A stretch of DNA of 64,000 nt from an uncultured Acidobacteriota bacterium (GTDB taxonomy: Bacteria; Acidobacteriota; Terriglobia; Terriglobales; Acidobacteriaceae), in contig CAILAC010000010.1 in assembly GCA_903832055.1 (NCBI GenBank), positions 248,001 to 312,000 on the forward strand. Direction: 5' to 3'. The number at the start of each line of letters is the position of its first letter. Position 1 is the first letter of the stretch. The translations under genes and the position numbers were made by a program. The notes beneath the pieces were generated by a model. That model was not told the origin of the DNA, ran no database searches, and was given only the letters and a program-made list of their open reading frames with translations. Positions 3,594-9,602 of this stretch are shown here, one piece after another.

Positions 3594-4727
3594 ATGAATG
3601 GCTTTCCCGCCGTAGACCCAATCCCCTTGCCTGCCCCGATCTGGCTTTTCAAACTGCTGCATATTGTCACCCTTTCACTGCACTTCGTGGCCATGCAGAT
3701 GCTCATCGGCGGCTTGCTTATCGCAGTTCTGCTCAACCTACTGGGCCGCTCCCCGGCATCGAAAACCGCAGCCACCGCGGTCGCTCGAAGGCTCACCGTG
3801 GTCATGACCTATGTGATCAACCTCGGCGTGCCCCCGTTGCTTTTTGCCCAGGTACTCTACGGCCGCGCCATTTACACCAGCAGTGTGGTCATGGGCGCCT
3901 GGTGGATTGCGGTCGTTCCGGTGCTCATCGTTGTGTACTGGCTGCTGTACCGATTCGCAGCAGGGCTTGAGCAGGGCCGCAAAGTCTGGTGGATGGGCCT
4001 GGGCGCATGGATCGGCGTCGGCGGCATCGCTCACATCTATACGGCCAACATGACCCTCATGCTGCGCCCTGAGGTCTGGCAGCAAATGTATTCGGTCTCG
4101 CCGCTCGGTACGCACTTGCCTACAGGCGACCCAACGACCGCGCCGCGCTTTCTCTTCTTCCTCGCGGGAGGCTTCGTAGCCGCCGGCCTCTGGCTCATTT
4201 ACCTCGCCGGCCGCAAGACTTTCACCGCCATTGAAGGCAGGTTCCTCAGCGCCCTCGGCGGACGCATCGCCGCCATCGCTGCCGTCCTCCAGATCGTCAC
4301 TGCGATCACTGTCTACCGCGCTCAGCCCGCCATCGTCCAGGCCGGCCTCGGCAGCAATCTTCTGTACAAAATTGCCGGATTCGGCTGGCTTGGCCTCACC
4401 GCCGTCATCCTCATCTACGCAGGCTTTGCCGCCATCGCAAAGCCGAGCAGCACGCTCATCAGCTGGCTTGCGCCGGCGCTGGCCTTCCTTTCGATCGCCT
4501 GCATGACTCTCTACCGGGACGGCATTCGCGACCTGACCCTGCTGAGCAAGGGCTACGACGTCTGGGCCCGCAACGTCGTTACCAACTGGAGCGTCGTCAG
4601 CATCTTCCTTGTTCTCTTCGTCGTTGGACTCGGCGTCGTCGGCTGGCTAATCTCCGTCGTCGCCCGCGCCACCCCTATCGCCGAAACCCCGACCTCCGCA
4701 ATTGCCGCCCAAGGGAGCGCCCTTTAG
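3594..4727 (+). CDS. CydA-superfamily-like polytopic membrane protein
   Basis: A 377-residue protein with about nine hydrophobic segments. The first segment has a histidine pair (LLHIVTLSLHF, H23 and H30). Its layout matches the CydA fold read by eye: a helix-1 His, a GV-rich second helix (INLGVPPLLFAQVLYG) and an IYTANMTLMLRPE stretch comparable to the AN-x-W-M-x-NP region of cytochrome bd subunit I. The CydA heme b558 histidine region is replaced (RFLFFLAGGF). It heads an operon with a Rieske protein, cytochrome b and a CydA-like/cytochrome c fusion, starting the next gene 2 bp after its stop. It probably pairs with the last gene product. Heme content and activity are unknown. Confidence 0.6.
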   Translation: MNGFPAVDPIPLPAPIWLFKLLHIVTLSLHFVAMQMLIGGLLIAVLLNLLGRSPASKTAATAVARRLTVVMTYVINLGVPPLLFAQVLYGRAIYTSSVVMGAWWIAVVPVLIVVYWLLYRFAAGLEQGRKVWWMGLGAWIGVGGIAHIYTANMTLMLRPEVWQQMYSVSPLGTHLPTGDPTTAPRFLFFLAGGFVAAGLWLIYLAGRKTFTAIEGRFLSALGGRIAAIAAVLQIVTAITVYRAQPAIVQAGLGSNLLYKIAGFGWLGLTAVILIYAGFAAIAKPSSTLISWLAPALAFLSIACMTLYRDGIRDLTLLSKGYDVWARNVVTNWSVVSIFLVLFVVGLGVVGWLISVVARATPIAETPTSAIAAQGSAL

Positions 4728-4729
4728 CC

Positions 4730-5239
4730 ATGAGTGATACCCCGTTTCAGCCCAATCTCTCCCAGCACGAAGTTTTGCCCTCAACCGTCGCCGAAACCGA
4801 GAACACCCCGACCCGCCGCGCCTTTATGGGCGTCGCTGCGGCCGCCGGCCTCTGCTATATGGGAGCGATGGGCTACCCCATCTATCGCTACCTTGCCTCG
4901 CCGGCAGAGATGGCCGCCAACCAGACCGCCGTCAGCGAAGTCACACTCAAAGACGCGCACAAGCTGCCCCCCGCATCGGCCCTGATGTTCAAATTCGGCA
5001 GCTCGCCAGCCATGCTGATTCATGGCACGGACAACACCTGGGTTGCATTCAGCGCCGTCTGCACCCACCTCGGTTGCACAGTCCAGTTCGAGCCGCAGAT
5101 GAACCGCATCCACTGCGCCTGCCACGGCGGAGTCTACGACCCCCACACCGGCAAAAACGTCAGCGGTCCTCCTCCACAACCCCTGAGGGCCTTCAAAGTC
5201 AACGTCGCCGTCGACGGCGTCACCGTCTCCCGAGCCTGA
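4730..5239 (+). CDS. Rieske 2Fe-2S protein of a cytochrome bc-type complex
   Basis: A 169-residue Rieske subunit. It has an N-terminal twin-arginine signal-anchor (TRRAFMGVAAAAGL, residues 28-41) and a C-terminal Rieske domain. Box 1 is CTHLGC (C111 and H113 ligands, C116 disulfide) and box 2 is CACHGG (C129 and H132 ligands, C131 disulfide). It would carry electrons from quinol at the cytochrome b subunit, encoded 21 bp downstream, to a high-potential acceptor on the outer face. Here the acceptor is plausibly the cytochrome c domain of the last operon gene, since no cytochrome c1 or f is encoded. All cluster ligands are present. Confidence 0.95.
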   Translation: MSDTPFQPNLSQHEVLPSTVAETENTPTRRAFMGVAAAAGLCYMGAMGYPIYRYLASPAEMAANQTAVSEVTLKDAHKLPPASALMFKFGSSPAMLIHGTDNTWVAFSAVCTHLGCTVQFEPQMNRIHCACHGGVYDPHTGKNVSGPPPQPLRAFKVNVAVDGVTVSRA

Positions 5240-5260
5240 TTCACCAGAAAGGATTCTGTC

Positions 5261-6334
5261 ATGGTTGCATCCATCTACAACTGGCTCGACGAACGACTCG
5301 GCCTCGCTGAAATCATCGCCTTTGCCCAGCACAAGACCGTCCCCACTCACAAACACTCCTTCTGGTACTACTGGGGCGGCATCTCACTTTTTCTCTTCCT
5401 CATCCAGGTATTCACCGGCATTCTCCTCCTGGTCTACTACCGCCCCGGCGCAGAAGCCTTTGAAAGTGTCCGCCAGATCACCTACGTCATGCATTTCGGC
5501 TGGCTCATCCGCTCGGCGCACTCATGGTCGGCCAACCTGTTCATCTTTTCGATCATCGTGCACATGTTTTCCGTCTACTTCATGAAGGCCTACCGCAAGC
5601 CGCGCGAAATCGGCTGGTTCACAGGCATAGCCCTGCTCTTCCTCGGTGCCCTCTTCGGCTTCAGCGGCTACCTGCTTCCAATGGACGAGCTCAGCTACTT
5701 CGCTACCAAGGTAGGTCTGCAAATCCCCGCCTCACTCCCATTCCTCGGACCCTTCACCGCCACCATCCTCCGCGGCGGCCCTGACGTCAGCGAATTCACC
5801 GTGCAGCGCTTCTTTGCCCTCCACGTCGTCGTCCTACCGCTACTTTTCCTGCCCCTGCTCGGCCTGCACCTGTACCTGGTTCAAAAGCACGGCAACGCGC
5901 TGCCACCCAGCGAACTCGCCAAGCCAGCCTCCGCGCGCAAGAGCATCCCCTTCTTCCCAAACTTCTTCCAAAAAGATCTCGCCATGTGGCTCATCTCATT
6001 GAACGTGCTCGCGCTGCTGGCCTCCGTCTACCCGTGGGACCTCGGCAAGCAGGCCGACGCACTTTCACCCGCTCCGGCCGGCATCCATCCCGAGTGGTAC
6101 TTCATGGCGCCGTTTCACATGCTCAAGATTCTCGGCAACTGGCTGCCTGGAGCCACCGGCGAAGTCGTTGGCATCCTGCTGTTCACCGTCGGCCTGGCCC
6201 TCTGGGTTGTCATTCCTCTCTATGACGGTGAAAACAAGGCCGGCTCCCGTGGTCGCATCGCTCACTACTTCGGTCTGTTTGCCGTTACCGCCCTGCTCGT
6301 CACCACCGCCCTCGGCTACTGGGGCATCCGCTAA
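5261..6334 (+). CDS. Cytochrome b, full-length (b6/PEWY fused) subunit
   Basis: A 357-residue cytochrome b with about eight membrane helices. Heme ligands are H87/H101 (spacing of 14) and H188/H203 (spacing of 15, HX14H). The latter is the b6-type rather than mitochondrial-type spacing. The quinol-site PEWY motif is at residues 277-280, so the b6-like and subunit-IV-like parts are in one chain. AAAGGA is a good ribosome-binding site. It transfers electrons between quinol and the Rieske centre and across the membrane. It lies between the Rieske gene and the CydA-like/cytochrome c gene (15 bp away), so the four proteins very likely form one complex. Confidence 0.95.
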   Translation: MVASIYNWLDERLGLAEIIAFAQHKTVPTHKHSFWYYWGGISLFLFLIQVFTGILLLVYYRPGAEAFESVRQITYVMHFGWLIRSAHSWSANLFIFSIIVHMFSVYFMKAYRKPREIGWFTGIALLFLGALFGFSGYLLPMDELSYFATKVGLQIPASLPFLGPFTATILRGGPDVSEFTVQRFFALHVVVLPLLFLPLLGLHLYLVQKHGNALPPSELAKPASARKSIPFFPNFFQKDLAMWLISLNVLALLASVYPWDLGKQADALSPAPAGIHPEWYFMAPFHMLKILGNWLPGATGEVVGILLFTVGLALWVVIPLYDGENKAGSRGRIAHYFGLFAVTALLVTTALGYWGIR

Positions 6335-6349
6335 CTCTGGAGAATTGCA

Positions 6350-7747
6350 ATGAATTATCCCTTTTGGGAAGTACCCTTCCTCGGCAGTAGCTCAGTTATC
6401 GCGATCATTGCGATCTTTCACGTGATGATCTCGCAGTTTGCAGTCGGCGGCGGCCTGTGGCTCCCCATGGCCGAGCGCAAAGCCCTCAAGGAAGGCCGCA
6501 CCGATTGGATGGCCCAGCTCAAATCCCACTCCCGCTTCTTTCTGCTCATCACCGGAGTCTTCGGCACCGTCTCCGGCGTCGGCATCTGGTTTGCCATCGG
6601 CCTCACGCAACCAGAAGCCACCAGCACCCTCATCCACAACTTCGTCTTCGGCTGGGCCATGGAGTGGGTCTTCTTCCTCATCGAACTCACCACCATCGCC
6701 GTCTACTACTACACCTGGAATCGCATCCCGGCCAAGCTCCACCTCGCCATTGGCTGGCTCTACGCCGGCTCCTCTCTCTTTACCCTCATCATCATCAACG
6801 GCATCCTCACCTTCATGCTCACCCCCGGCGATACCTGGCTCGGCGTTGCGGGAACCGGCGCTGAGGCGAGCAAGTTTTGGAACGCCTTCTTCAACCCGAC
6901 TTACTGGCCCAGTCTGCTCATGCGCACCCTGGTCTGCATCTCACTTGCCGGAGTCTGGGCACTCGTCACCGGCAGCCGCATCGACAGTGACAAGCAGCCC
7001 GCTCTCAAAGCCAGCTACCTGCGCTGGACTACGCGCTGGCTGGTACCATCCTTCGTCCTCATGCCGCTGTCACTGCTCTGGTACCTGCTCATGGTGCCCG
7101 CATCGCAGCGTGCCCTGCTCACCCTCGGCATCTCCACCATCGGCTCCGGCACCTTTTCGCAGGTAACCCGCCTCGCCCTGGTCATGATCATCACCTCGGC
7201 CACCATCATCGTAGTCACTTACTACCTGGCCTACAAAAATCCAAAGGACTTTACCCTCGCCCACGCCTCGGCCATCGTCATCCTCGCGCTCATGGCCACC
7301 GGCACCGGCGAACAAGCCCGCGAAATGCTGCGAAAGCCTTACGTCATCGGCCGCCACATGTACTCAAATGGCCTACGCGTATCAGAGGTCGCTGGCCGCA
7401 ACCAGAACGGCTACCTCGAGCACTCCCTCTGGCTCAACCAAACCACGAGCGCCCACTGGGCCCAGGGCGAAGCCATGTACCGCGGCCAGTGCGGCGCATG
7501 TCACACGCTCACCGGCTACCGCGCGCTCAATAAGCTCCTCGCCAACCGCGACCGCCAGTCCGTCGGGAGTCTCCTCACGATGCTCCACGAATACAAAGCT
7601 GACCTCGCCTACCGCAAATTCATGCCGCCGCTCACCGGCACCAATGAAGAGATTGAAGCCCTCGGCGACTACCTCTACGCACAGGCCAGCCCCAACGCCC
7701 CAAAAGCGACTCCCGTTTCCGCACCTGTCCTCAAGGCCGAAAAATAG
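6350..7747 (+). CDS. CydA-superfamily membrane protein fused to cytochrome c domain
   Basis: A 465-residue protein. The first 340 residues form about nine helices aligning with cytochrome bd subunit I: H24 (helix-1 His, b595-type), E105 and E112 in AMEWVFFLIEL (matching the conserved E99/E107 pair) and GEQAREMLRKP (like the CydA GRQPW region). The b558 histidine position reads LMRTL, so R192 replaces it. The quinol loop is absent. Residues 370-450 are a cytochrome c domain with CGACH (381-385) and a probable axial Met in KFMPPLTG (M425). Cytochrome c-bearing members of the bd superfamily have been described as oxygen-reductase-like (OR-C) families; assignment here is inference. It is the last gene of the bc operon, preceded by GGAGA. 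Confidence 0.8.
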   Translation: MNYPFWEVPFLGSSSVIAIIAIFHVMISQFAVGGGLWLPMAERKALKEGRTDWMAQLKSHSRFFLLITGVFGTVSGVGIWFAIGLTQPEATSTLIHNFVFGWAMEWVFFLIELTTIAVYYYTWNRIPAKLHLAIGWLYAGSSLFTLIIINGILTFMLTPGDTWLGVAGTGAEASKFWNAFFNPTYWPSLLMRTLVCISLAGVWALVTGSRIDSDKQPALKASYLRWTTRWLVPSFVLMPLSLLWYLLMVPASQRALLTLGISTIGSGTFSQVTRLALVMIITSATIIVVTYYLAYKNPKDFTLAHASAIVILALMATGTGEQAREMLRKPYVIGRHMYSNGLRVSEVAGRNQNGYLEHSLWLNQTTSAHWAQGEAMYRGQCGACHTLTGYRALNKLLANRDRQSVGSLLTMLHEYKADLAYRKFMPPLTGTNEEIEALGDYLYAQASPNAPKATPVSAPVLKAEK

Positions 7748-7760
7748 CCCCCAAAAAACA

Positions 7761-7791
7761 GGCCAGCCCCAAGCATCGCTCAAGGCTGGCC
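7761..7791. terminator. Bidirectional hairpin terminator
   Basis: Inverted repeat GGCCAGCC / GGCTGGCC with a 15-base loop between the convergent respiratory operon and the beta-helix gene. On the minus strand it is followed by TGTTTTTTGG, so it best terminates the minus-strand transcript. Confidence 0.7.
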
Positions 7792-7832
7792 CGATACTCC
7801 ATTTCGTGGGCTAAGTGCCCACCGTTCCTTGC

Positions 7833-9602
7833 CTATTTTTGATAAGCTCCAGCGTTAATTGAATTCCCGTTCGTCCGCATATTCCCCGCAAAGTCCAGAG
7901 TCCCATAAACTACCGAACCTAGTCCGTAATTCCCCGCCCCCCGCGCTGGCGATCCTGCTGTCAGGTCAAAGTTATACGGCACCTTCACACTGATCAATCC
8001 GGGATTGATGAATTTTGAATGTTTCTCCAAACCAGAGACCGCTTGGTAAGAGGCGAACGTCGTATGCTCGACACCCTCATACCACCACTGCGGTGCCGAT
8101 GTCGTGAAGTAGATGTTATAGTCCGCCAGTACCGGCGCGGCCGTTGAGTTTGTCAGACCATTCAGCATCACACCCTGCGCCCCGGCAAATACGATGTTGT
8201 TCTCAAATACATTGCTTGTAGCATGAAACTGTATCTGAAAATCCCCTCCTTGGCTGGCCCGATTGTTATTCCACATCGTATTGTTCACGATCGTGATGTG
8301 ATCGCTGCCTCCGCGGTCGGCTGCATACCCACCAATCGAAATTCCCGCCAGATTTCCGCCATAAACCACATTATTTCGAATCGTCACATAACTCGCATCA
8401 TGCCCTCGCGTCTCGCTGGCAGCCTCAATATTCAGATCGCAATTAAACACCAGGTTCCGTTCAATCACCACATGCGCGCAGCCATCGCAATAAATCCCAT
8501 CCGCTCCATAGCTGTTGTACGCCGGATTCTTCAAACTCGTGATGTTATAGACCGTGTTGAGTGCGATCAGACCATTATGCGCCTGGTCCCGCCCGCTCGG
8601 CCCCACTTGGTAAAACCCTGTCGCGTCAATGGCTATGTTGTCGTTGTCGTGAATCACATTCCCCGTTACTGTAAATCCATTAACATTGCCGTCAAATACT
8701 ACCACTTCACTATTGCCCGTCTTCAACCCGTAGATCACATTCCCGCTTACATACAGGTTGCTCAAGGGCACCGTCGACGTTCCATAAAAACCAATTCCAT
8801 GCGCATTGCCCTGTGGTCCGGCGGTCTCCGTAATACCGTGCACAATGTTGTTCAAAAATCTCAGATAGCTCCCAGACCCCGTCACATAGATACCGGCAGG
8901 CTCGTTTGTAATATTCCTGCTCGTATAATTCTGGATCGCAAACCCCTCAAGAATCACGTAGCTGAAGTTCCCCTGCAGATTGAACAATCCTTGAATCGAA
9001 TCACCGCAGCAAGCTACCCCGGTTCCATCGACCACTGCCAACTCCTTCGGATAACTCTGAAACACAATCGATCCGGCAGTCGTCGAACCCGATCGCTTCA
9101 AGTTCACTGACTCGTGATAGGTCCCGCCGCGCACATAAATCGTGTCACCGGCAATCGCCATATCTGCCGCATGTTGGATAGTCCGCCAGGGCAGCGCGAG
9201 AGTCCCCGGATTCGTGTCCTTGCCCTTCGCAGAGACATAAAAAGATAGTCCGGCAGTCACCGCAACTGGCACATCCACAGGCTCGGCCCCGGGTGCTATC
9301 ACCCTCAGAGTTACAACGGTTCCTACCGGAACAGCAGCAGGCGCTCGATAGACTCCCGCCGAACTCACAGTCCCCACAGTGGCATTGCCGCCGGAAACTC
9401 CATTCACCTGCCAAACAAGGGCTGCGCTTGTGCTCCCAGAATAAGATGCAACAAAAGTCGTGCTCGCCCCCGTATGCACCGAAGCAAAACCGGGAGCTAC
9501 CGACAGCGGAATCTGCCCAACCGCTGTGACCACAAATAGGAATGGCGCCAGCATACCTACCGCCAGCGCCATCTGAGAGTAACTTAGCCAACCACTCCGC
9601 AC
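7833..9602 (-). CDS. Secreted right-handed parallel beta-helix protein
   Basis: A 589-residue exported protein. It has a hydrophobic signal around residues 11-29, an Ig-like N-terminal region (about 30-115) and then a beta-helix introduced by FYVSAKGKDTNPGT and PWRTIQHAADMAIAGDTIYVRGGTYHE. These motifs are typical of PL-type pectate lyase/chondroitinase-like and DUF1565 proteins. Many N-x-x-I/V-x-x-N rungs follow. The GTG start directly abuts the accC stop and has GGAGGGG six bases upstream inside accC, so it appears to be translated as the last gene of the accBC transcript. Polysaccharide binding or lysis is likely; no catalytic residues were assigned. Confidence 0.8.
   Translation of the reverse strand: MRSGWLSYSQMALAVGMLAPFLFVVTAVGQIPLSVAPGFASVHTGASTTFVASYSGSTSAALVWQVNGVSGGNATVGTVSSAGVYRAPAAVPVGTVVTLRVIAPGAEPVDVPVAVTAGLSFYVSAKGKDTNPGTLALPWRTIQHAADMAIAGDTIYVRGGTYHESVNLKRSGSTTAGSIVFQSYPKELAVVDGTGVACCGDSIQGLFNLQGNFSYVILEGFAIQNYTSRNITNEPAGIYVTGSGSYLRFLNNIVHGITETAGPQGNAHGIGFYGTSTVPLSNLYVSGNVIYGLKTGNSEVVVFDGNVNGFTVTGNVIHDNDNIAIDATGFYQVGPSGRDQAHNGLIALNTVYNITSLKNPAYNSYGADGIYCDGCAHVVIERNLVFNCDLNIEAASETRGHDASYVTIRNNVVYGGNLAGISIGGYAADRGGSDHITIVNNTMWNNNRASQGGDFQIQFHATSNVFENNIVFAGAQGVMLNGLTNSTAAPVLADYNIYFTTSAPQWWYEGVEHTTFASYQAVSGLEKHSKFINPGLISVKVPYNFDLTAGSPARGAGNYGLGSVVYGTLDFAGNMRTNGNSINAGAYQK

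Follow-up and report, generated by a model that had tools for sequence, protein, structure and literature searches.

A four-gene operon pairing a Rieske/cytochrome b core with two CydA-like proteins in an uncultured acidobacterium

We describe a putative respiratory operon in a 64,000-nucleotide (nt) stretch of DNA, here called the window, from an uncultured member of the Acidobacteriaceae (assembly GCA_903832055.1, contig CAILAC010000010.1, positions 248,001 to 312,000). The host genome assembly comprises 4.6 Mb and is 98.8% complete. The operon encodes a Rieske protein (RSK) and a cytochrome b (CYTB) flanked by two membrane proteins, A1 and A2, that resemble CydA, the second of which is fused to a cytochrome c domain.

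The operon and its proteins

The list of open reading frames (ORFs) places the unit A1-RSK-CYTB-A2 at 3594-7747 of the window, all on the plus strand and exactly where an initial annotation, made from the sequence alone, had put four genes. The intergenic gaps are 2, 21 and 15 nt. The features are as follows.

3594-4727, plus strand: A1, membrane protein of predicted CydA fold (CydA'-like partner), 377 amino acids (aa), about nine transmembrane helices
4730-5239, plus strand: RSK, Rieske [2Fe-2S] protein, 169 aa, PF00355 (E 2.6e-13)
5060-5077, plus strand: Rieske cluster box 1, CTHLGC, residues 111-116
5114-5131, plus strand: Rieske cluster box 2, CACHGG, residues 129-134
5261-6334, plus strand: CYTB, cytochrome b with fused N- and C-domains, 357 aa, PF13631 (E 1.5e-43), PF00033 and PF00032
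6089-6100, plus strand: CYTB Qo-site motif PEWY, residues 277-280
6350-7747, plus strand: A2, CydA-family protein, 465 aa, PF01654, with eight transmembrane helices and a fused cytochrome c domain at its C-terminus
6419-6421, plus strand: A2 His24 codon, aligned with heme ligand H21 of Geobacillus (H19 of E. coli)
6923-6925, plus strand: A2 Arg192 codon, replacing b558 ligand His186
7322-7324, plus strand: A2 Glu325 codon, aligned with heme ligand E378 of Geobacillus (E445 of E. coli)
7490-7504, plus strand: A2 heme-c motif CGACH, residues 381-385, with distal Met425
7759-7793, minus strand: terminator-like hairpin (pattern match alone) between A2 and the convergent ORF 7833-9602 (minus strand)

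Long ORFs on either side of the operon (2140-2973 and 7833-9602) both lie on the minus strand. The hairpin is on the strand of the second of these and marks the 3' boundary of the operon. A promoter scan at the operon gave no match. The absence of cydB, cytochrome c1 and heme-copper genes, noted initially, is borne out for the operon itself, which also contains no separate gene for a cytochrome c1/f subunit.

Both Rieske boxes and a full-length cytochrome b had been recognized at the outset, and the Pfam matches given above agree. RSK has an N-terminal anchor with an RR motif, where the match to a twin-arginine translocation (Tat) signal is weak (E 0.023, below the cut-off). The heme-binding histidine pairs of CYTB are 87/101 (HX13H) and 188/203 (HX14H), and the protein has no cysteine.

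A2 matches the family profile Cyt_bd_oxida_I (PF01654) across residues 17-202 (E 4.7e-18), as do all 42 aligned A2 members, which were picked by hand from 78 A2 entries after removal of one masked row and of most fragments and near-identical copies. A profile of these members finds CydA of Geobacillus thermodenitrificans (5doq_A, E 7.5e-12) with the residue pairs (5doq_A/A2) H21/H24, E101/E105, E108/E112, H186/R192 and E378/E325. Comparison with canonical CydA sequences from fetched loci (hhalign, run globally and locally; the local alignment was used) gave E 3.5e-18 and equivalent pairs, so that both alignments place H24, E105, E112, E325 and R328 at the diheme site. According to passages of two papers on published structures, heme b558 is bound by His186 and Met393, whereas Glu445 and His19 bind the remaining two hemes (PMC8585947, PMC8951039). 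The second b558 position, Met393 in E. coli, aligns with T273 of A2 in the 5doq_A profile or with L275 in the hhalign alignment, two residues apart; there is no methionine at this position in either alignment and none is invariant there among the 42 members. The quinol (Q) loop region of CydA aligns to a gap in A2. All 42 relatives share the heme-c ligands and H24, E105, E112, R192 and E325 without exception. The helix-3 glutamates are seven residues apart, as in Geobacillus CydA, which lacks the Leu101 insertion in this helix (PMC8585947, PMC8951039, in part), and A2 lacks it as well. From the ligand pairs in the two alignments, we take A2 to have lost the quinol loop together with heme b558 but to retain a diheme site that is intact by its ligands. 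The glutamate pair, the helix-1 histidine, the arginine in place of the b558 histidine and the missing quinol loop had all been part of the initial annotation; the alignments uphold them and add that the second active-site ligand, Glu325, is kept and that both b558 ligands are gone.

In profile comparisons A2 was far closer to CydA (E 3.7e-17) than to the best control, cytochrome b (E 0.0068). The comparison profiles are thin: that of CydB holds four close sequences, that of CydA eight (six used) and the ActC-like one three. The predicted model of A2 (mean pLDDT, or predicted local distance difference test, 87), built without hemes, has eight membrane helices, and ranks 1-10 of a Foldseek search are all chains that we take to be CydA from entry names and chain lengths, as we do for the CydA and CydB chains below. 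The closest named match to A2, at 96% identity, is from an Acidobacteria bacterium (locus L050).

The cytochrome c domain proposed for A2 is supported by the CGACH motif at residue 381 and by Met425, which is invariant among the aligned members, and its match to PF13442 (E 3.1e-4) scores 21.4 bits against a curated cut-off of 27. Counted loop by loop from the N-terminal end, with helix borders set by hand, lysines plus arginines number 0, 5, 0, 2, 1, 5, 1 and 2. Together with the eight predicted helices, these charges place the N-terminus and the C-terminal heme-c domain on the outer (periplasmic) side.

A second CydA-like protein was said to open the operon, and this claim stands in part. Cyt_bd_oxida_I matched neither A1 of the window nor any of 44 aligned A1 members. 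However, the A1 and A2 profiles match each other with E about 1e-11 (probability 97), and A1 shows a weak match to the canonical CydA profile (E 1.7e-4, probability 49), against E values of 0.17 for CydB, 0.22 for cytochrome b and 0.15 for the ActC-like profile. The predicted model of A1 (pLDDT 91), likewise without hemes, retrieves CydA chains at Foldseek ranks 1-10 and CydB chains from rank 11. We considered whether A1 might be CydB, and ruled this out from the E value of 0.17 against CydB compared with 3e-11 against A2 and from a predicted fold closer to CydA chains. Both flanking proteins therefore appear to fall inside the CydA superfamily, A2 clearly and A1 by predicted fold and remote profile similarity; placement outside it would have refuted the proposal of the initial annotation. 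Invariant residues of A1 include H30, Q86, W104, Y119 and R185; of the diheme-site ligands only the helix-1 histidine (H30) is kept invariant, with no invariant glutamate in transmembrane helix 3. A1 looks like a degenerate CydA paralogue that would act as CydB does.

Linkage across genomes

A scan with six short peptide patterns of one genome per species (84,980 species) yielded 75 loci, 45 of them with CYTB. Iterated profiles drifted, with A1 and A2 cross-matching, and families were called by best score. The order A1-RSK-CYTB-A2 is kept in 43 of the 45 CYTB-bearing loci, and the linkage on which the initial annotation's proposal hinged is conserved in other genomes; the other two loci (L040 and L064) begin at contig ends. 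Three more close loci (L028, L057 and L061) start at contig ends within or just before A2. With start codons chosen by script, 22 loci among the 43 in this order show an overlap of A1 and RSK, of 1-8 nt. According to the sequence records, carriers of the four genes belong to the Acidobacteria, Verrucomicrobia, Chlorobi (Thermochlorobacter and kin) and Armatimonadota, and this recurrence rules out linkage local to one clade. The named strain Bryocella elongata DSM 22489 has one copy (L035). Related series of metagenome-assembled genomes account for several loci, and L038 and L061 come from one isolate; the counts are therefore not counts of independent events.

The PEWY motif is present in all 44 sets that have all four genes called, window included. 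The strict Rieske pattern is found in 39 of these, the remaining five being a Chlorobi group with CTH[LM]AC, one of which also has CACHDG. Distance matrices of the four proteins from 42 gene sets correlate at 0.87-0.92, compared with at most 0.43 in 500 permutations.

A2-like genes reach E 1e-20 or better in 66 of 297 genomes of the window's phylum, its own among the 297. Immediately upstream of each of the ten top-ranking A2 matches (48-100% identity) lies a CYTB match, 2-558 nt away, and the longest of these gaps is the size of known inserts. The CYTB genes of these ten pairs, that of the window among them, are also the ten top-ranking CYTB matches. In the 22 of 56 further A2-bearing genomes for which CYTB places are listed, A2 and CYTB lie on different contigs or more than 100 kb apart.

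In 27 more distant loci (30-46% identity), neither RSK nor CYTB was called in the flanks examined. A1 nevertheless adjoins A2 in 22 of these, and all five misses have A2 cut off on one side by a contig end, although one of them (L082) has more than 4 kb downstream without an A1 call. Two CydA paralogues are thus encoded together both in the operon, where A1 is found in 43 of 45 cases, and outside it. Some of the distant A2 genes encode two or eight heme-c motifs.

We also looked for further cytochrome c genes. In the 3 kb on either side of the 45 operons, three ORFs out of 253 contain CxxCH, and their N-terminal starts show nothing else typical of a cytochrome. The idea that the intergenic gaps hide a further cytochrome c gene was rejected as well, since gaps longer than 250 nt carry a gene like 23S_rRNA_IVP or a short-chain dehydrogenase gene.

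A proposed electron path and its alternatives

We think it probable that the operon specifies a self-contained quinol:O2 oxidoreductase made of a bc core, the heme c on A2 and a bd-type diheme site. Quinol from the membrane pool would be oxidised at the Qo site of cytochrome b (PEWY). The first electron would pass directly from the Rieske cluster to the heme c at the A2 C-terminus, and the second would be recycled through the two b hemes (Q cycle). Since a Rieske/cytochrome b core depends on a c-type acceptor, and the heme c on A2 is the only one that the operon offers, this heme is the probable acceptor; it would replace cytochrome c1 as well as the lost heme b558. It would then feed the diheme site in the membrane bundle of A2, where one heme would be bound by His24 with Glu105 nearby and the other by Glu325, and where O2 would presumably be reduced. 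A1 would be the pseudo-symmetric partner that replaces CydB, and the four proteins would assemble as one complex. The initial annotation had arrived at the same route, from quinol through cytochrome b, Rieske protein and cytochrome c to a CydA-like site, and as a prediction it is strengthened by the intact active-site ligands, the loss of b558, the predicted periplasmic heme-c domain and the absence of any other CxxCH gene from the operon. The kept gene order, the overlaps of A1 and RSK, the correlated distance matrices and the ten shared top-ranking pairs likewise speak for the self-contained oxidoreductase. Electrons that pass a Q cycle before reaching an oxidase give a higher charge yield each, so a bd-type site in this position should exceed canonical cytochrome bd in charge yield per electron.

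Several observations weigh against this proposal. A1 lacks a Pfam match of its own, and single-sequence and profile searches of Pfam and PDB with it were uninformative. The position of Trp441 of E. coli CydA, discussed in part of PMC8585947 as important for internal electron transfer, aligns with invariant Glu321 of A2 (hhalign), so the internal electron path must differ from that of E. coli CydA. Among the 43 ordered loci, frames are broken as assembled in A1 of L023 and L029 and in CYTB of L030, and A2 of L058 is short. The distribution is patchy rather than universal: A2 at 66% identity or more is found in five of 61 near relatives, own genome included. Moreover, a COX1-family match is present in 28 of 30 carrier genomes, chosen from the 48 close loci and tested for COX1 and CydA (CydB in eight of the 30), so the operon is rarely the sole candidate oxidase. 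Of the two exceptions, G074 has CydA and CydB matches. G076 speaks for the proposal, as it has no COX1 and no CydB match and A2 is its only CydA-family match; its assembly is fragmented, however, and these absences are therefore weak evidence. The COX1 family includes nitric oxide (NO) reductases, and the 795 aa frame of the only COX1-family match in G071 suggests a candidate NO reductase. Each of the four Verrucomicrobia-type carriers G069-G072 has a second, more divergent CydA-family protein in an open frame of 504-514 aa. In the genome of the window there is no CydA match besides A2 and one COX1 match, on contig C16 and outside the operon. It comes after genes bearing NrfD and Fe-S domains, which we read as a putative alternative complex III (ACIII) operon.

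The operon could instead encode two enzymes, with a diffusible cytochrome c carrying electrons from a Rieske/cytochrome b complex to an oxidase made of A1 and A2. This differs from the self-contained oxidoreductase in assembly only, and the odds of the two overlap; we consider it unlikely. The A1A2 pairs without Rieske protein and cytochrome b in the 22 distant loci speak for it, as they imply that A1A2 can work with other donors. However, the surroundings of the 45 CYTB-bearing loci are free of credible cytochrome c genes out to 3 kb, and the four proteins co-diverge.

Somewhat less likely still is that A2 serves as the cytochrome c subunit of a complex III, held by a CydA-derived anchor, with electrons leaving to a soluble cytochrome c or a COX1-type oxidase and no reduction of O2. 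The loss of b558, the separate COX1 operon of the window's genome and the frequency of COX1-family matches among carriers would fit such an arrangement. A mere anchor would not need the catalytic-site ligands, however, which are invariant across phyla and in the distant relatives with no RSK or CYTB in the flanks examined, and the regular presence of A1 beside A2 in those relatives also argues against it.

That the bd-like site reduces or detoxifies a substrate other than O2 under stress (NO or peroxide), with the bc core as electron supply, seems very improbable: an Rrf2-family gene does diverge from A1 in seven Acidobacteria loci and four of Desulfobulbaceae type, and some Rrf2 proteins sense NO, but others sense iron, redox or Fe-S status, none adjoins the operon of the window, and clustering of neighbours, judged from the starts of representatives, revealed no NO-related family common to four or more loci.

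Returning to the self-contained oxidoreductase, it can be compared with several known systems. Murali, Gennis and Hemp reportedly defined the OR-C and OR-N classes of the cytochrome bd superfamily in 2021, and their classification may already cover the context of the operon. A2 is a candidate member of OR-C, as it combines a fused heme c motif with the lack of a quinol site, which we take, as the initial annotation did, to be the criterion of that class. With both classes the operon shares a CydA-family core without quinol site and the pairing of two CydA paralogues (CydAA'). The superfamily is divided into qOR, OR-C and OR-N in a section of PMC13189123, and part of PMC10839748 proposes that OR-N CydAA' oxidises cytochrome c, the donor that we propose here too. 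Unlike these classes as known from citing papers, the operon has its cytochrome c fused to A2 and the Rieske and cytochrome b genes between the paralogues. In Nitrospirales, according to passages of PMC12342949, nearly every genome with ACIII has OR-N5 CydAA' genes immediately downstream of it, and TO_3 and TO_4 of Ca. Manganitrophus (PMC9040806, in part), set alongside by description only, likewise join a bd-like oxidase to genes like those of complex III or ACIII. Those systems and the operon of the window belong to different lineages. Compared with canonical CydAB, A2 has the same predicted fold, diheme-site ligands and, as in Geobacillus, helix-3 glutamate spacing; in contrast, it has neither the b558 histidine and methionine nor the Q loop, there is no CydB, and electrons would enter through heme c.

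The actinobacterial bcc-aa3 supercomplex is a further case of complex III and a terminal oxidase encoded as a unit. Portions of a survey of five acidobacterial strains describe bc1-caa3 and ACIII-caa3 superoperons, which are encoded in the same manner, together with cbb3 and cydAB (PMC8407424); these portions mention no operon of the A1-RSK-CYTB-A2 kind. Unlike all three, the operon has a putative oxidase of bd type rather than a heme-copper one, and a single fused heme c takes the place of cytochrome c1 or cc. For Acidobacteria, the same survey points out that canonical bd oxidases leave out complex III and are less energy-conserving (PMC8407424, in part). The pairing of genes like those of complex III or ACIII with a bd-like oxidase is already in print for Nitrospirota. 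The cassette, the fused heme c and the spread were not met in the literature titles, abstracts and passages reached, which is not proof of absence as most subscription papers lay outside that reach. We see an even chance that the operon represents a supercomplex so far undescribed, in which a bc core would hand electrons directly to the heme c of a bd-superfamily oxygen reductase, giving a bd-type site coupled to a Q cycle in a module spread as a unit over at least four phyla. The operon suggests a bd-type site wired behind a Q cycle, which would be a third complex III-oxidase pairing in Acidobacteria, beside bc1-caa3 and ACIII-caa3. It also becomes directly testable which donor serves the non-quinol bd families, because donor, carrier heme and oxidase sit in one four-gene cassette.

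Neighbouring and inserted genes

A gene for a 23S_rRNA_IVP four-helix protein repeatedly lands in the gaps of the operon. Such ORFs lie between CYTB and A2 in eight loci (L016, L020, L021, L029, L032, L036, L038 and L058). The copy at L036:5927-6316, the one tested, matches PF05635, and this locus has a 23S_rRNA_IVP gene between RSK and CYTB too. The gap between RSK and CYTB holds short-chain dehydrogenase ORFs, on the strand of the operon, in five Acidobacteria loci (L017, L021, L025, L038 and L070); the gene tested, L025:2321-3082, matches PF13561.

The Rrf2-family genes divergently upstream of A1 were tested on L018 (4280-4795, minus strand), where the match is PF02082, and three clustered cysteines are present in the four copies read. 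The Rrf2-bearing loci of Desulfobulbaceae type are L073, L074 and L085, together with L076, which is recorded as Proteobacteria. In L073-L076 and L078 the A2 homologues reach about 850 aa and contain eight CxxCH motifs. Next to their A1A2 pair, L073-L076 also have a canonical CydA (PF01654, tested on L076) and a gene resembling CydB.

An NrfD/ActD gene is found downstream of the operon in Verrucomicrobia locus L041. In Ignavibacteria, the A2-A2-A1 cluster of L065 is preceded by a gene that is similar by BLAST to this L041 gene and itself has no Pfam match. The genome of the window contains a second Rieske/cytochrome b locus on contig C12 (L095:4687-8734), which includes a 688 aa eight-heme cytochrome and would be another unusual quinol oxidoreductase.

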